Positions 34,821-43,685 of a DNA stretch of 64,000 bases are shown one piece after another. The DNA is from Oligoflexia bacterium (GTDB lineage: Bacteria; Bdellovibrionota; Bdellovibrionia; Bdellovibrionales; Bdellovibrionaceae), in the NCBI GenBank assembly GCA_016861345.1, contig BOLD01000005.1, positions 62,001 through 126,000 on the forward strand. The letters run 5' to 3'. Position numbers and translations under genes: made by a program. The notes beneath the pieces were generated by a model, which searched no databases, was not told the DNA's origin, and worked only from the letters and a program-made list of their open reading frames with translations. The stretch's first letter is position 1, and each line of letters starts with the position of its first letter.

Positions 34821-35886
34821 GAATTTCAAAAAGAGTTCCGACATGGGGTTCACTACTGACTTTGATTGTTCCCTTCATCTCTTGAATAATTTTGTGAGCA
34901 ATCGTGAGGCCAAGGCCTCGACCAACTCTGTTGACATTAAACTTGTAAAAAGGATTAAATATTTTATCTAATGTTTCCTGGCTCATACCAACGCCAGTAT
35001 CACGAACACTGATTTTGACCTGACTGTTTGGTGAGAGTTCAGTTTTAATTTCAAGATGATTGGATTTGTATTTGAGTTTATCCATGGATTCTGCTGCGTT
35101 CATGATAATATTGAGTAGGACTTGGCCAAGTTTAACCTCATCTCCCAGGACTTTTGGGATTTCTCCGTACGATTTTGTTAAAGGGGCTTTGACTTTAATC
35201 ACATTCCAGAGAACTGAGATTGTAGAATCAATGACTTGATGTATATCAATGAGAGCTGCAGTTGTGGTCGGTTCTTGTGAAAGAAAAGTGAGATCTTTTA
35301 CGATTGTTTTAGCTCTCAAAAGGCTTTCCTGACTTGATGCAATTAATGTCTGTATGATTTCAAATTGTTTAGGGTCGAGATTTTTTTCTTTACCTAGGAA
35401 GTCTAAGATAATTTCAAGTGAAGCGGACATGACAGCAAGTGGATTGTTGATTTCGTGTGCAACTCCAGAAGCTAAATGTCCAAGTGAGGTCAGTCGGTCA
35501 TTTTGAATCAACGTCATCTCAAGTTCTTTTTTTGCAGTTATGTTTTGTCCTACTCCAATAAAATGAGTGATTTCGTTATTTTTACTTTTTACAGGGTTGA
35601 TTGTAAGTTCGAGGACAAATGGCACTCCAGATTGCGTTTTATTGTGCATTTCTCCGCGCCAGGTGGATCCCCCTAAGATGGTGTCCCAGAGAGCCTTGTA
35701 AAAGGTTTTATCGTGCAAACCGGAGGCAAAAATCTTGGGGTTTTTACCTATTAACTCTTCATGCGGAAGGCCTACGGTTTTACTGTAGGCGGGGTTACAC
35801 CAAAGAATTTGCCCAAGTGTGTCTGTGATGACGATTGTATTTTCAGTAATTTCAATAGCTTGTAGTAATAGATCTTGTGTCACCAT
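34801..35886 (-). CDS. Cytoplasmic PAS-histidine kinase
   Basis: The 361-residue protein lacks membrane segments. A PAS domain (about 5-120) ends in GVGQNITAKKELE. The HisKA box is HLASGVAHEINNPLAV, and the ATPase domain has NIIMNAAESM, DTGVGMS and GRGLGLTIAHKI. It should sense an internal signal and phosphorylate an unlinked regulator. No partner is adjacent. Its 3' end overlaps the CinA-domain gene by 20 bases on the other strand. Confidence 0.92.
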   Translation of the reverse strand: MVTQDLLLQAIEITENTIVITDTLGQILWCNPAYSKTVGLPHEELIGKNPKIFASGLHDKTFYKALWDTILGGSTWRGEMHNKTQSGVPFVLELTINPVKSKNNEITHFIGVGQNITAKKELEMTLIQNDRLTSLGHLASGVAHEINNPLAVMSASLEIILDFLGKEKNLDPKQFEIIQTLIASSQESLLRAKTIVKDLTFLSQEPTTTAALIDIHQVIDSTISVLWNVIKVKAPLTKSYGEIPKVLGDEVKLGQVLLNIIMNAAESMDKLKYKSNHLEIKTELSPNSQVKISVRDTGVGMSQETLDKIFNPFYKFNVNRVGRGLGLTIAHKIIQEMKGTIKVSSEPHVGTLFEILIPSAK

Positions 35887-35957
35887 GGTGAGAAGATCAT
35901 AGCATGGTCAGCAGGTGTGGATAAGTTGTGATAAAAAAACAAGATAAAACTGGTCCA

Positions 35958-35986
35958 TTGACAGAAGGTAAGGTGGCCAATTAAAG
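35958..35986 (+). promoter_or_regulatory. Candidate promoter of the riboswitch-nuclease unit
   Basis: TTGACA at 35958-35963 is a perfect -35 element. The -10 at 17 bases spacing (TTAAAG) is poor. A start near 35993 would place the aptamer about 13 bases into the transcript. Sequence match only. Confidence 0.33.
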
Positions 35987-36005
35987 CATGAATAAGGGTT
36001 AGAAG

Positions 36006-36074
36006 GTTCTAGGTATAAGCCGGTAATAGGATCGGCGTTTCTACCAGCCACCGTAATGGCTGACTATTTGGAGC
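36006..36074 (+). promoter_or_regulatory. Purine (guanine-class) riboswitch aptamer
   Basis: The core matches the purine aptamer (Rfam Purine type, xpt model). P1 pairs 36006-36015 with 36065-36074 (10 pairs, several G-U). J1/2 is UAA at 36016-36018. P2 is GCCGGU/AUCGGC (36019-36024, 36031-36036), with GG at 36029-36030 in L2. J2/3 is TTTCTAC at 36038-36044. P3 is AGCCA/TGGCT (36046-36050, 36057-36061), with CC at 36051-36052 in L3 to pair with L2. J3/1 is GACTAT; C36064 equals C74 of xpt, which selects guanine or hypoxanthine over adenine. The P1 3' strand contains GGAG (36070-36073), the ribosome-binding site of the ATG at 36080, so ligand binding should block translation. L2 and L3 are each one base shorter than in xpt. 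Confidence 0.92.
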
Positions 36075-36079
36075 AATTG

Positions 36080-36589
36080 ATGAAAAGTCATTTTTTAATT
36101 TTCGGTCTTCTTGTTCTTATACAATTCGTGACTCAAATTTCATTTGCAAGAATGGCTGGTGGTTATGGCGATCAATACCCACTCGGGCCAAATCCGCAGA
36201 CAACCCCAGGAGTACTTTGCAATCGCCCGGATGGTTTCCGATACGCTGAGAAGATAAAATATTGTAATCGCAATGTCGATCCTGAGTTAAAGCGAGAAAT
36301 TATTGTGACCTATGATCGACAGTTCGGTTTTACTATCGAGAGAATGGATCGTCGAAAATTTAAAATTGACCATTTTATTCCTCTATGTGTGGGTGGAGGA
36401 AATGATCGTGAAAACCTTTGGCCACAACATGAAAGTATATACAAAGTTACTGATCCACTTGAAGCTTTGATATGTGAGAAAATGGCGCAAGGAAGATTAA
36501 GGCAAGAGATCGCAGTCCAGATGATCAGAGCAGCCAAGAGTGATTTAAAGTTAGTTCCTGAAGTTACTCGTCGAGTGCGCGCACTTTAG
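36080..36589 (+). CDS. Secreted HNH nuclease under riboswitch control
   Basis: The 169-residue protein has a signal peptide (hydrophobic 5-18, ISFAR) and an HNH nuclease core at about 95-118: KIDHFIPLCVGG, Asp97-His98, Asn108 and Asn112 in NDRENLWPQ. Two cysteines (47, 62) may pair. It probably degrades DNA or RNA outside the cytoplasm. The start at 36080 has GGAG 6 bases upstream; an ATG at 36056 in the same frame lies inside the aptamer's P3 and is rejected. The guanine riboswitch in its leader is the only clear regulation. A second secreted nuclease gene lies at 42747-43685. Confidence 0.88.
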   Translation: MKSHFLIFGLLVLIQFVTQISFARMAGGYGDQYPLGPNPQTTPGVLCNRPDGFRYAEKIKYCNRNVDPELKREIIVTYDRQFGFTIERMDRRKFKIDHFIPLCVGGGNDRENLWPQHESIYKVTDPLEALICEKMAQGRLRQEIAVQMIRAAKSDLKLVPEVTRRVRAL

Positions 36590-36762
36590 TTTTCTCAAAA
36601 TTAAAATACTGAGAGAGAATCATCTCTAGGGTTGAGATAGAAAAAAGAAAATTTGCAAACACTGATTCTGTAAGCAGTGCCGTCAATACTAAATTATTCT
36701 TTGACACTGAAGTTGGGCATCATGGTTAAATTTCATATCAATACACATGGTGGGGGATTGAT

Positions 36763-39126
36763 ATGGCTTCAGATACAGCAAATGGCCCAGGCAACAAAAA
36801 TCTTGCAAGCATATTTTTAAATAAAAAATATTGGATAGCACATTTTATCTTTGTCTCAGCGGTCAGTATTGGTGGGTTGATTTATCTTGGTGGAGCGACC
36901 TACAAACATGCGCCCCCACTTTCTGATTTTGTATCTGCAGAGAATGGTGAAGTCGTTATTTCAAAAAAGGATATTTATAAAGGTCAGCAAGTTTACCTTC
37001 AAAGAGGATTAATGAGTTACGGCTCATTTTGGGGTGATGGGGCTGAACGTGGGCCTGATTTTACGGCAGATGCGCTTCATCAAATGAATCTAGCAATGCA
37101 GTCGTTTTATGAAAACGAAAAACAAAATCAGTCGCTCACTCAAAATGATATAGAGGCAATATCGGCTCGTGTGAAACGTGAGCTTCATTTCAATACATGG
37201 GATGAGAAATCTGATCAGATCAAATTGAATCCTGCTCAGATTCATTCGTTTAAGCGGCTGAATGATCATTACCTAGGTCGTTTTACCGATCCTAACCACG
37301 CTGAATACATTCGCTTGGGCCATGAATTAAGCCAAGAAGATATTCGTTTGCTGACTACATTTTATTTTTGGGGTGCATGGGTGACGGTAGCTAATCGTCC
37401 TGGGGAAAATTATAGTTATACTCACAATTGGCCGTATGATCCGGCTTCTGGCAATATTCCCACTTCCTCAACAGTCGTTTGGAGTGTTCTTTCTATTCTG
37501 CTTCTCTTTTTAGGAACTGGTTTTATTCTTTATGTTTATGGACAAATGAAAGTTGTCTTTCCTGAGCCATTTAATGACATTACTCATGCGAAATCGAAAT
37601 CTTTGACAACAAATGACCTCGAGAGCGATCGTGTTCGACCTACTCAAAGAGCGACTTATAAATTCTTTGCCTTAGCTGTTGTTTTATTTGGACTGCAGGT
37701 TTTAGCTGGGATTCTTTGTGCAACTGATTTTGTTCGACCATTTGGAATTTTTCTTGGTGATATTATTCCGTTCTCAGTCGCTCGTGGTTACCACACATTG
37801 TTCCAGATATTTTGGTTTTTCATGTGTTGGGTGGGTTACACTATTTTCTTTTTGCCCAAATTAGCAAAAGTTCCTCCGGGGCAGAATTTTTTAATTAATC
37901 TTTTGTTTTATCTATGCATTTTTGTGGGTGCTGGAGCCTTGGTGGGGATTTATCTTGGTCATAAGGGTATTTTGACAGGGGAGATTGGATATTGGTTGGG
38001 CAGCCAGGGTTGGGAATTTATGGAGCTTGGTCGCCTGTTTCAAATTGTTCTCTTGATTGGTTTTGCACTCTGGATCTTCATTATTTATCGTGCAGTGAAA
38101 CCTTGGTTAACAAAAAAGAATTTGTGGTCAGTTCCTGCTTGGCTACTTTACGGTAGCGGCATCATGGTTTTCTTCCTGTTTTTCGGCCTTTTTGTCTTAC
38201 CAGAGACGAATTTTGCAGTAGCTGATTTCTGGAGATGGATGGTTGTGCATATGTGGGTTGAGGTTACCTTTGAAGTATTCACAACCGTTATTGTGGCTTA
38301 CATGATGGTGCAGATGAACTTCATTAATCGCGTTATGGCGGAAAGAGCGATATTTTTGGCGGTCATGCTCTTTTTATTTACAGCGACTATAGGAGTCGCA
38401 CATAATTTCTACTGGATTGCTAAGCCAACAGGTGTCATTGCTCTTGGAAGTACATTTTCAACGCTTCAGGTTCTCCCACTTCTTTTGTTGACACTAGATG
38501 CCTGGTCGATGAGGCAAAAAGGCGATCTGGCGATTCAGCATCTAAGAAGCGGAAAGCAAAAGGTCGTAATGGAGGAAGTTTGGCTCTATATCCTCGCGGT
38601 CAATTTCTGGAATGTCTTTGGAGCAGGAGTTTTTGGTTCGCTCATTAATCTTCCAATTGTGAATTATTTTGAGCACGCAACTTATTTGACAAACAATCAT
38701 GCCCATGGTGCCATGTTTGGAGTTAAGGGTAACATTGCAATTGGTGGAATGCTCTTTTGCTTGCAGCATCTTTTCCCAAAGGCCTCTTGGAATCAAAAAC
38801 TGGTCCGAATGTCATTTTGGAGCTTGAATATTGGAATTGCGATGATGATGTTTCTGGATCTATTCCCTGTTGGTGTATACCAGCTTTACGCAGCCATTGA
38901 ACATGGATTTTGGTACGCTCGATCTGACGCCATCGTTCAAGGTAGTGTATTTAAGACACTGACATATCTTCGTTCATTAGGCGGGGTGGTTTTTGTTTTC
39001 GGTGGGCTTATACCATTAATTTGGTTTGTCCTTTCTCGTGCTCCTCGACTTTTACCTGAGAGTAAATCTCAAGAGGAGGCATTTGTTGCTTATGAAGAGG
39101 GTTGGGCAAATCAAGATAAGTTGTGA
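36763..39126 (+). CDS. norB: Quinol-dependent nitric oxide reductase
   Basis: The 787-residue, roughly 14-helix protein reduces NO to N2O with quinol electrons in the inner membrane. The N-terminal extension (about 45-290) is typical of single-subunit qNOR and has no heme c motif. Heme and FeB ligands are visible: HTLFQIFWF, HMWVEVTFEVF with its glutamates, HNFYWIAKP and NNHAHGAMFG. No norC is nearby, in keeping with qNOR. GGGGGA precedes the ATG. TTGACA at 36701 is a possible -35, but no good -10 or regulator site was found. Alone, it suits NO detoxification more than full denitrification. Confidence 0.95.
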   Translation: MASDTANGPGNKNLASIFLNKKYWIAHFIFVSAVSIGGLIYLGGATYKHAPPLSDFVSAENGEVVISKKDIYKGQQVYLQRGLMSYGSFWGDGAERGPDFTADALHQMNLAMQSFYENEKQNQSLTQNDIEAISARVKRELHFNTWDEKSDQIKLNPAQIHSFKRLNDHYLGRFTDPNHAEYIRLGHELSQEDIRLLTTFYFWGAWVTVANRPGENYSYTHNWPYDPASGNIPTSSTVVWSVLSILLLFLGTGFILYVYGQMKVVFPEPFNDITHAKSKSLTTNDLESDRVRPTQRATYKFFALAVVLFGLQVLAGILCATDFVRPFGIFLGDIIPFSVARGYHTLFQIFWFFMCWVGYTIFFLPKLAKVPPGQNFLINLLFYLCIFVGAGALVGIYLGHKGILTGEIGYWLGSQGWEFMELGRLFQIVLLIGFALWIFIIYRAVKPWLTKKNLWSVPAWLLYGSGIMVFFLFFGLFVLPETNFAVADFWRWMVVHMWVEVTFEVFTTVIVAYMMVQMNFINRVMAERAIFLAVMLFLFTATIGVAHNFYWIAKPTGVIALGSTFSTLQVLPLLLLTLDAWSMRQKGDLAIQHLRSGKQKVVMEEVWLYILAVNFWNVFGAGVFGSLINLPIVNYFEHATYLTNNHAHGAMFGVKGNIAIGGMLFCLQHLFPKASWNQKLVRMSFWSLNIGIAMMMFLDLFPVGVYQLYAAIEHGFWYARSDAIVQGSVFKTLTYLRSLGGVVFVFGGLIPLIWFVLSRAPRLLPESKSQEEAFVAYEEGWANQDKL

Positions 39127-41992: not shown

Positions 41993-42805
41993 ATGGTTAT
42001 AGCAAAAGAAATTATGCATAGAGGGACCCCGGTTTTATCTTTTGAAACCAAAGTTCCAGAAGCACTCGAGTATTTTCGTAAACATCCAACATCTTTTGTT
42101 GCGATCTCTGCTGATATCGATCGGTACCATGGGGTATTGACCGAGGCTGGATTAATGAGGATTTACTTGAGATACAAATCCAATCCAGCCAAAGATTCTC
42201 TCATTTTGTACAGAGATTTGCTGGAGCCGACTCAGTTGATTCATGAGAACGAGACATTTCCTGATATTGTTAAAAAACTTGTAACTGCCGTGGGAAATCG
42301 TATTTTTGTGATTAACGACAAAGGTGCTGTCATTGGATATATTACAGCGAAAGACATTCTTCCCTTCTTTACAGAGGGGCAATCCGAAAAACAATTTATT
42401 GAAACCACACGTAGCCTTCAGTCGGATTTGTATTTGTTTGAAAGTTTTTTTACAAAGTCTCCATTTATGATGCATTCAGTGAATCATCATGGAGTTATTC
42501 AAATGGCGAATGAAATGCTTCATGCTGTATTAGGATATGAATATGGGGAATTAATTGGAAAAACAATTTTTGACATTTACCCCGAGGAAAACCACAAAAA
42601 GGCTGAGGCTGGGATTAAGCAAATTTTTGATAAGGGATACCACAAAGTCATTCAAGCTCAAATGATCGACAAAAAAGGAAAACGAATCGATGTCGAGCTT
42701 GTTTCAAGGGCTCTTACTGATCAAGATGATAAACCCATAGGAACAATCACTGTATCGAGGCCGCTGGATATGAACTATCTTCTAGGTTGTCTGCCACACT
42801 CTTAG
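41993..42805 (+). CDS. CBS-pair and PAS domain protein
   Basis: The 270-residue protein has two CBS repeats (about 1-130; the second ends VIGYITAKDILPFF), a linker helix and a PAS domain (about 150-262; IGTITVSRP). No output domain or membrane segment is present. CBS pairs bind adenosyl ligands and PAS domains sense small molecules or redox, so this is a soluble sensor or adaptor. The ATG at 41993 is used; no good Shine-Dalgarno is seen. The last 59 bases overlap the convergent nuclease gene. Confidence 0.85.
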   Translation: MVIAKEIMHRGTPVLSFETKVPEALEYFRKHPTSFVAISADIDRYHGVLTEAGLMRIYLRYKSNPAKDSLILYRDLLEPTQLIHENETFPDIVKKLVTAVGNRIFVINDKGAVIGYITAKDILPFFTEGQSEKQFIETTRSLQSDLYLFESFFTKSPFMMHSVNHHGVIQMANEMLHAVLGYEYGELIGKTIFDIYPEENHKKAEAGIKQIFDKGYHKVIQAQMIDKKGKRIDVELVSRALTDQDDKPIGTITVSRPLDMNYLLGCLPHS

Positions 42806-43685
42806 AAGTTGTGCCGTCACAAACACTGGAAAGTTCTCTCATGTACTCACGCTGTTTTTCCAGTTCGCCTTTGGTCATCTGAAGATCTTCTGCTTTACAG
42901 TTGTACTCATTAAGAGCTCTGTGGATGGCTTCGCTCTCTGGGGGGGTCATTGCCAAACTCCAGATAAGCTTTACTTTTAACCAGCGCTGTAGGTATGCGC
43001 AGGTGAATTCCTGGTTGGGTGGAAGGTACCCTTCGGGGCCACGGTCACCCTTTGCCCCATTCTCATTACCGAGTACTGCGATGAGATGATAAGGATTCGA
43101 TGTGTAATTTGCGTAGAGACAACGTTTGCGTCCATCCCATTTCCAGGCTCCTGTACGGTAGGCATTTTTGAGAGGAACAAAGTGATCAATTTCCATATCA
43201 CGTGCATCTGTAAATTCTTGCCCAGAGAATGGATCATGCCAAAGGCCAGTGGTGACACGACATTTTTTCGAATCGGCATACTCTACAGGCTTCAAAGAAT
43301 CTCTTTCAAGTACGATAGCTCGAGTATTTTTGCATGTACCGCTGGGGTCCTTAATCCAAGTCCCGAAGTGTTTTCTGCGATTGTAAGGTTCGTTGCCTTC
43401 GTTAAGTGGTTTATTGTGACGAATCCATCGCAGAAGATTCATATCTTTAAAAACATTATCTTGAAATGTGGTCTCTAGGACTGTGTTCAGTACTTGAAGC
43501 GGCTGTGAGAAGCCACTCTGGATTTTTTTATTTGACTCATCGATTGTGTAGTACTGCTTGTAGACCTCGGAGCTTTCTTCCGTCGAAATCACATTATCAT
43601 TCAAATTAGGAATATTAACTTGCGCCGAAAGTTGTGGAGTTAATATGAGCGAGAACAGTAGTATATATAAGTTTTGTCGTGACAT
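42747..43685 (-). CDS. Secreted HNH nuclease (DUF1524-like)
   Basis: The 312-residue protein has a signal peptide (cleavage near LSAQV) and an HNH-type core: MEIDHFVPLKNAYRTGAW (Asp167-His168), then YTSNPYHLIAVLGNENGAKGD and EGYLPPN, the DUF1524/secreted-HNH arrangement. A C-terminal coiled coil follows. It should cut nucleic acids outside the cytoplasm, like the shorter nuclease at 36080, but the two are not close homologues. GGAGGGA lies before the ATG and may be masked by a hairpin (43690-43725). Confidence 0.87.
   Translation of the reverse strand: MSRQNLYILLFSLILTPQLSAQVNIPNLNDNVISTEESSEVYKQYYTIDESNKKIQSGFSQPLQVLNTVLETTFQDNVFKDMNLLRWIRHNKPLNEGNEPYNRRKHFGTWIKDPSGTCKNTRAIVLERDSLKPVEYADSKKCRVTTGLWHDPFSGQEFTDARDMEIDHFVPLKNAYRTGAWKWDGRKRCLYANYTSNPYHLIAVLGNENGAKGDRGPEGYLPPNQEFTCAYLQRWLKVKLIWSLAMTPPESEAIHRALNEYNCKAEDLQMTKGELEKQREYMRELSSVCDGTTSKSVADNLEDSSYPAASIQ

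Follow-up and report, generated by a model that had tools for sequence, protein, structure and literature searches.

We found that the messenger RNA of a probably exported nuclease in a relative of the predatory bacterium Bdellovibrio begins with a purine riboswitch of the guanine type that overlaps the ribosome-binding site, and that the same kind of element sits in front of several different exported nucleases across the phylum Bdellovibrionota. This arrangement suggests that these bacteria turn nucleic-acid digestion down when they have enough purine, although guanine binding, the OFF sign of the switch and its purpose are inferred.

The region under study lies in a 64,000-nucleotide stretch of DNA (hereafter the window) from an Oligoflexia bacterium (GCA_016861345.1, contig BOLD01000005.1, positions 62,001 to 126,000). 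A covariance model search of the whole window against 4227 families identified a match to the purine riboswitch family RF00167 at 52.7 bits (gathering score 37, E 4.2e-6). The alignment covers the full model (1-102), and this is the only riboswitch that reaches its cut-off in the window. The anatomy of the leader, read by eye from the sequence, agrees with the ViennaRNA minimum-energy fold, which draws the same three helices:

35991-36086 (+), RF00167 purine riboswitch match, whole model with flanks
36006-36015 (+), P1 5' strand, which pairs with the strand carrying the Shine-Dalgarno (SD) sequence (10 bp; 7 of the first 8 pairs are A-U or G-U)
36016-36018 (+), J1/2 UAA, with the U22 equivalent first
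36019-36036 (+), P2 with L2 AAUAGG, whose GG makes the loop-loop contact
36037-36044 (+), J2/3 GUUUCUAC, with the U47 and U51 equivalents
36045-36062 (+), P3 with L3 CCGUAA, whose CC makes the loop-loop contact
36063-36064 (+), J3/1 AC, with the C74 equivalent at 36064
36065-36074 (+), P1 3' strand, containing the SD sequence
36070-36073 (+), SD sequence GGAG, wholly inside P1
36080-36589 (+), HNH-type nuclease with a hydrophobic N-terminus, 169 aa

The longest open reading frame starts at an in-frame ATG at 36056, inside the aptamer, but the SD sequence fits the ATG at 36080, 15 nt after C74. A first-pass annotation of the sequence had proposed a guanine riboswitch masking the ribosome-binding site of a secreted HNH nuclease, and its coordinates, guanine-type core, P1-embedded SD and HNH-type protein hold up. 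The next gene downstream (36763-39126, +), 173 nt after the nuclease, encodes a single-chain nitric oxide reductase with COX1 and NorB cytochrome c-like domains.

Further analysis of the 169-aa product indicated that it is likely, but not certain, to be a divergent HNH nuclease. Alone, the protein falls below the Pfam cut-offs (13.9 bits versus 27.5 for HNH_5). However, in a 15-member alignment of the family 14 members hit HNH_5 at E<=0.1, the best at 6.6e-5, and 12 hit HNH. A profile of the alignment has Cas8f-HNH fusions as best solved relatives (E 0.026), and D97, H98, N112 and H117 are invariant in 35 sequences. A confident structural model (pLDDT 93.5) returned HNH-containing entries at ranks 1-14 of the PDB list, though all of these matches are weak (best E 0.22, none <=0.001). 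Export of this protein is inferred from its hydrophobic N-terminus; a signal-peptide heuristic passed 23 of 42 control ORFs and all 11 EamA proteins and was too lax to support any count. No phage relatives were found in 50,697 records at E<=1e-5. A second HNH-type protein with a hydrophobic N-terminus (PF07510 GmrSD_C, E 3.9e-9) is encoded 6 kb away at 42747-43685 (-), without a riboswitch match in the window.

We next asked whether this association extends beyond the window. The window's own genome has two purine riboswitches, the other lying before an endonuclease I. Of 99 genomes in a search of relatives (the window's own included) 63 have matches, and of 368 genomes in a search of the phylum 93 have matches. 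The union is 150 riboswitches, 112 from the first search and 38 more from the second; these counts are lower bounds, as searches with over 40 genomes use stricter filters and lose weak matches (a match in one genome, G011, was found in the first search and missed in the second). Classified by the next gene, 76 precede this HNH-type nuclease, 39 an endonuclease I, 12 an EamA transporter, 11 an exported-looking PD-(D/E)xK-like protein with a GELDVV..GEVKCWK motif, 6 EEP nucleases of two types, 4 a DUF3465 protein and 2 an EndoU protein. No xpt, pbu or pur gene, nor any other purine salvage or synthesis gene, is the next gene behind any of the 150, with only the first gene behind each aptamer considered. 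Thus, where the first-pass annotation had described a single unusual gene, the HNH-type nuclease is the commonest target of the purine riboswitches found in the phylum.

These classes derive from BLAST clusters and from Pfam searches of one or two representatives per cluster rather than of all 150 proteins. Representatives pass their cut-offs for endonuclease I, EamA, EndoU (PF14436, 2 of 2), DUF3465 (1 of 2) and one EEP type, while the other EEP representative falls just short (23.1 versus 24.5 bits). The GELDVV family, of about 190 aa with a hydrophobic N-terminus, has only sub-threshold hits to HamA, DUF234 and NERD, and its assignment as PD-(D/E)xK-like is putative. Endonuclease I and HNH nucleases may share the beta-beta-alpha-metal fold, so that calling these families unrelated would be too strong. 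The EndoU genes suggest that RNA as well as DNA digestion may be in the regulon. In two of the four DUF3465 loci (L017 and L025) the start next to the aptamer is a UUG that opens a leader stretch or a short frame ahead of the likely signal peptide.

To explore how the aptamer might act, we compared the leaders. One EamA locus (L116, no start within the stretch, assigned by eye from its partial protein) and L282-L287 were left out of these statistics, as was L268, one of the EndoU loci, which was parsed wrongly. In 131 of 132 parsed non-EamA leaders 11-21 nt separate C74 from the start codon, the exception being L268. In 11 EamA leaders the distance is 21-57 nt and the SD lies outside P1, providing an internal control with the same phylum and aptamer but another platform. 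The EamA leaders carry mostly GUCUCUAC in J2/3 (10 of 11 parsed), and in one of them (L112) we saw by eye a hairpin that could compete with P1. The register of the SD differs between leaders (UAUUUGGAG, UAUGGAGG, UACGAGG, UAAGGAGG and others). An unbroken P1 holds two or more SD bases in 81 of 131 leaders, four or more in 34, all in 3 (the window's among them) and none in 36. With one mismatch allowed these numbers are 101, 63 (with SD bases ahead of P1 left out; 64 in another count), 15 and 17. The rule is therefore an SD that overlaps or abuts the closing helix, and the complete burial noted in the first-pass annotation is this member's version.

Leaders of relatives show compensatory changes in P1 pairs 3-5. 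Taking one leader per genus and gene family (59 groups), P1 pairs 3, 4 and 5 are standard in 51.4, 46.5 and 41.7 of 59, against 34.1, 24.8 and 26.2 in shuffles. HNH leaders alone (33 genera) show the same signal (29.2, 26.7 and 26.0 against 17.9, 19.9 and 19.3), but in endonuclease I leaders alone (8 genera) no pair clearly exceeds shuffles. From pair 6 outwards, where most SD guanines of HNH leaders lie, pairing is little or not above shuffles (39.6 versus 33.5, 38.0 versus 36.3 and 31.8 versus 30.3 of 59). Nevertheless, C is enriched opposite SD guanines at pair 7 (26.5 of 50.5, against a background C of 0.197) and more weakly at pairs 6, 8, 9 and 10.

The bases that contact the ligand are those of guanine-I aptamers. 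U22, U51 and C74 are guanine-I contacts (PMC9295807), and all three have equivalents in the window. Across the set, U51 is kept in 143 of 143 parsed leaders and C74 in 141 of 143; of the two others, one (L258) has one extra base before the C, and the second is the wrongly parsed L268. The window fits neither the 2'-dG-II class, which has C51 and a J3/1 insertion (PMC8872408), as it has U51 and a two-base J3/1, nor the adenine class, which is expected to carry U at position 74. Guanine, with hypoxanthine as a likely second ligand, is the best call.

The nuclease family is wider than its switch. Of 58 HNH matches of 120 bits or more in the 99 genomes (the window's own included) 52 have the aptamer just upstream, against 1 of 22 weaker matches. 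Of 80 named loci (the best 80 of 160 confirmed, many from the same organisms as in the relatives search) 41 carry the aptamer and 39 lack it. By record titles, 27 of 28 loci titled Bacteriovorax, Halobacteriovorax or Bacteriovoracaceae lack it and 40 of the other 52 have it, although titles of metagenome bins are unreliable; two bins titled Streptomyces griseus and Nitrosovibrio carry this nuclease with the riboswitch and are probably mislabelled. B. bacteriovorus strain kdesi has the HNH nuclease with the aptamer. No remnant aptamer was found by J2/3 motif before orthologues without a match, either in 6 relatives or in 38 of the named loci (the 39th begins inside the gene). Orthologues with the nuclease but no aptamer and random P1 changes were among the signs that the first-pass annotation had named as counting against its reading, and this sign exists in part.

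Taken together, we consider it likely that the element is a guanine-I riboswitch working as a direct translational OFF switch. Since ligand binding stabilises P1 in this class, guanine or hypoxanthine in the three-way junction would hold P1 closed and hide the SD, and a fall in guanine would let P1 open and ribosomes load next to the aptamer. With the same cassette before several other exported nucleases, this would constitute a guanine-responsive regulon for digesting nucleic acid outside the cell or in prey. The in-silico support for switching itself is weak, however. Forcing P1 lowers SD accessibility in 48 of 72 HNH, 26 of 37 endonuclease I and 3 of 11 EamA leaders, but only slightly (mean SD unpairedness in HNH leaders is 0.31 free and 0.29 with P1 forced). 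In the window P1 forms at probability 0.94 without ligand, so it could be closed regardless of guanine. No promoter-like site was found upstream of the aptamer on the + strand within 35880-36760.

Other readings appear unlikely but deserve consideration. The ensemble result raises the possibility that the window's copy is a closed or degenerate switch that no longer responds, yet its core is complete, it scores 52.7 bits, and its weak A-U and G-U pairs may be left open by co-transcriptional folding; a relative (L066) also keeps the same P1. The small change in SD access, and the dominance of transcription attenuation among Firmicutes riboswitches (PMC2258182), could instead point to action through transcription or RNA stability. 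Against this, only 15 nt separate C74 from the start codon, no terminator-like site was found in 35880-36760, and P1 and SD overlap in most leaders. It is likewise improbable that the aptamer responds in vivo to 2'-deoxyguanosine or another nucleoside released by digestion, giving product feedback on the nuclease. Nuclease products are nucleotides, and related 2'-dG-II aptamers are reported before endonuclease I, ComEC and phospholipase D genes (PMC8872408), but the leaders keep U51, where 2'-dG-I and -II have C, and nearly all keep C74 in the expected place.

One target can be linked to known biology. In B. bacteriovorus, a genome of our set (G036) holds three PF04231 genes, as does the published table (bd0934, bd1244 and bd3507; PMC3593177), and by gene order the third, the only one with a riboswitch match, is Bd3507; the genes taken as Bd0934 and Bd1244 have none. 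Bd3507 is an endonuclease I with a predicted secretion signal. Its transcript is highest at 1-2 h (PMC7925074), whereas the protein is up 5.35- and 5.17-fold at 3 and 4 h (PMC12546842), a lag that is compatible with translational control but has other explanations. Other observations are less favourable. purF (Bd3009) falls during growth in prey, read by its authors as purine supply from prey (PMC12546842), and plentiful guanine while Bd3507 rises would speak against the simple logic. Deletion of Bd3507 did not affect predation (PMC7925074).

Purine riboswitches are a textbook case of a cell adjusting its own purine synthesis, salvage and uptake; here the step behind the sensor is digestion of nucleic acid outside the cell, in a phylum known for bacteria that eat bacteria. 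A bolder reading, which we offer only tentatively, is that Bdellovibrionota turned the guanine riboswitch into a feedback device for feeding, in which internal guanine sets when exported nucleases are translated and, in intraperiplasmic predators, times the late wave of prey nucleic-acid digestion. Under this reading the element has been attached to four named nuclease families and probably a fifth, predicting nucleic-acid roles (for DUF3465, in degradation or uptake) for DUF3465 and the exported PD-(D/E)xK-like family, and purine transport for the EamA protein. The switch would also give Bd3507, already deleted and reporter-fused in print (PMC7925074), an unsuspected controlling RNA, and makes the question of what times the sequential release of nucleases during predation testable in a laboratory predator.

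The aptamer class and the type of mechanism are known, and what is new, as far as we have seen, is the combination of a guanine-I aptamer, an SD overlapping P1 and an exported-nuclease regulon across a phylum. No paper that we found among open-licence publications, judged by title, abstract start or passages, connects a purine riboswitch with Bdellovibrio nucleases (among those without relevant content were PMC13273304, PMC3766115, PMC3627812, on a c-di-GMP riboswitch RNA, PMC7174725, PMC12622784 and PMC11656739), and prior notice, including in Singh and Sengupta 2012 (PMC3499989) and Weinberg et al. 2017, is not excluded. The element shares with guanine-I riboswitches (RF00167) the covariance score, the three-way junction, the L2 GG and L3 CC, and the U22, U47, U51 and C74 equivalents, but it stands before exported nucleases and its SD overlaps P1. 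The 2'-dG-II riboswitches of Bacteroidetes (PMC8872408) have a purine-type junction and include endonuclease I among their downstream genes, a precedent for a purine-family riboswitch before a nuclease that the first-pass annotation, which knew only of purine transport, synthesis and salvage genes, had not considered. They differ in having C51 and a J3/1 insertion, where the present leaders have U51 and mostly no insertion, and they occur in another phylum; here four named nuclease families and a putative fifth are involved. The Bd3507 and Bd0934 secreted nucleases of B. bacteriovorus HD100 (PMC7925074, PMC3593177) were described without mention of a riboswitch (0 occurrences in PMC7925074), yet Bd3507 is by gene order the endonuclease I behind one. 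Finally, direct translation attenuation of the SAM-I type likewise places the ribosome-binding site in the P1 3' strand, the aptamer's own closing helix (PMC2258182). That paper names TPP, preQ1 and SAM-I as the common cases and finds it unclear why other classes use this arrangement little, whereas here the SD overlaps P1 in most leaders of a purine class.
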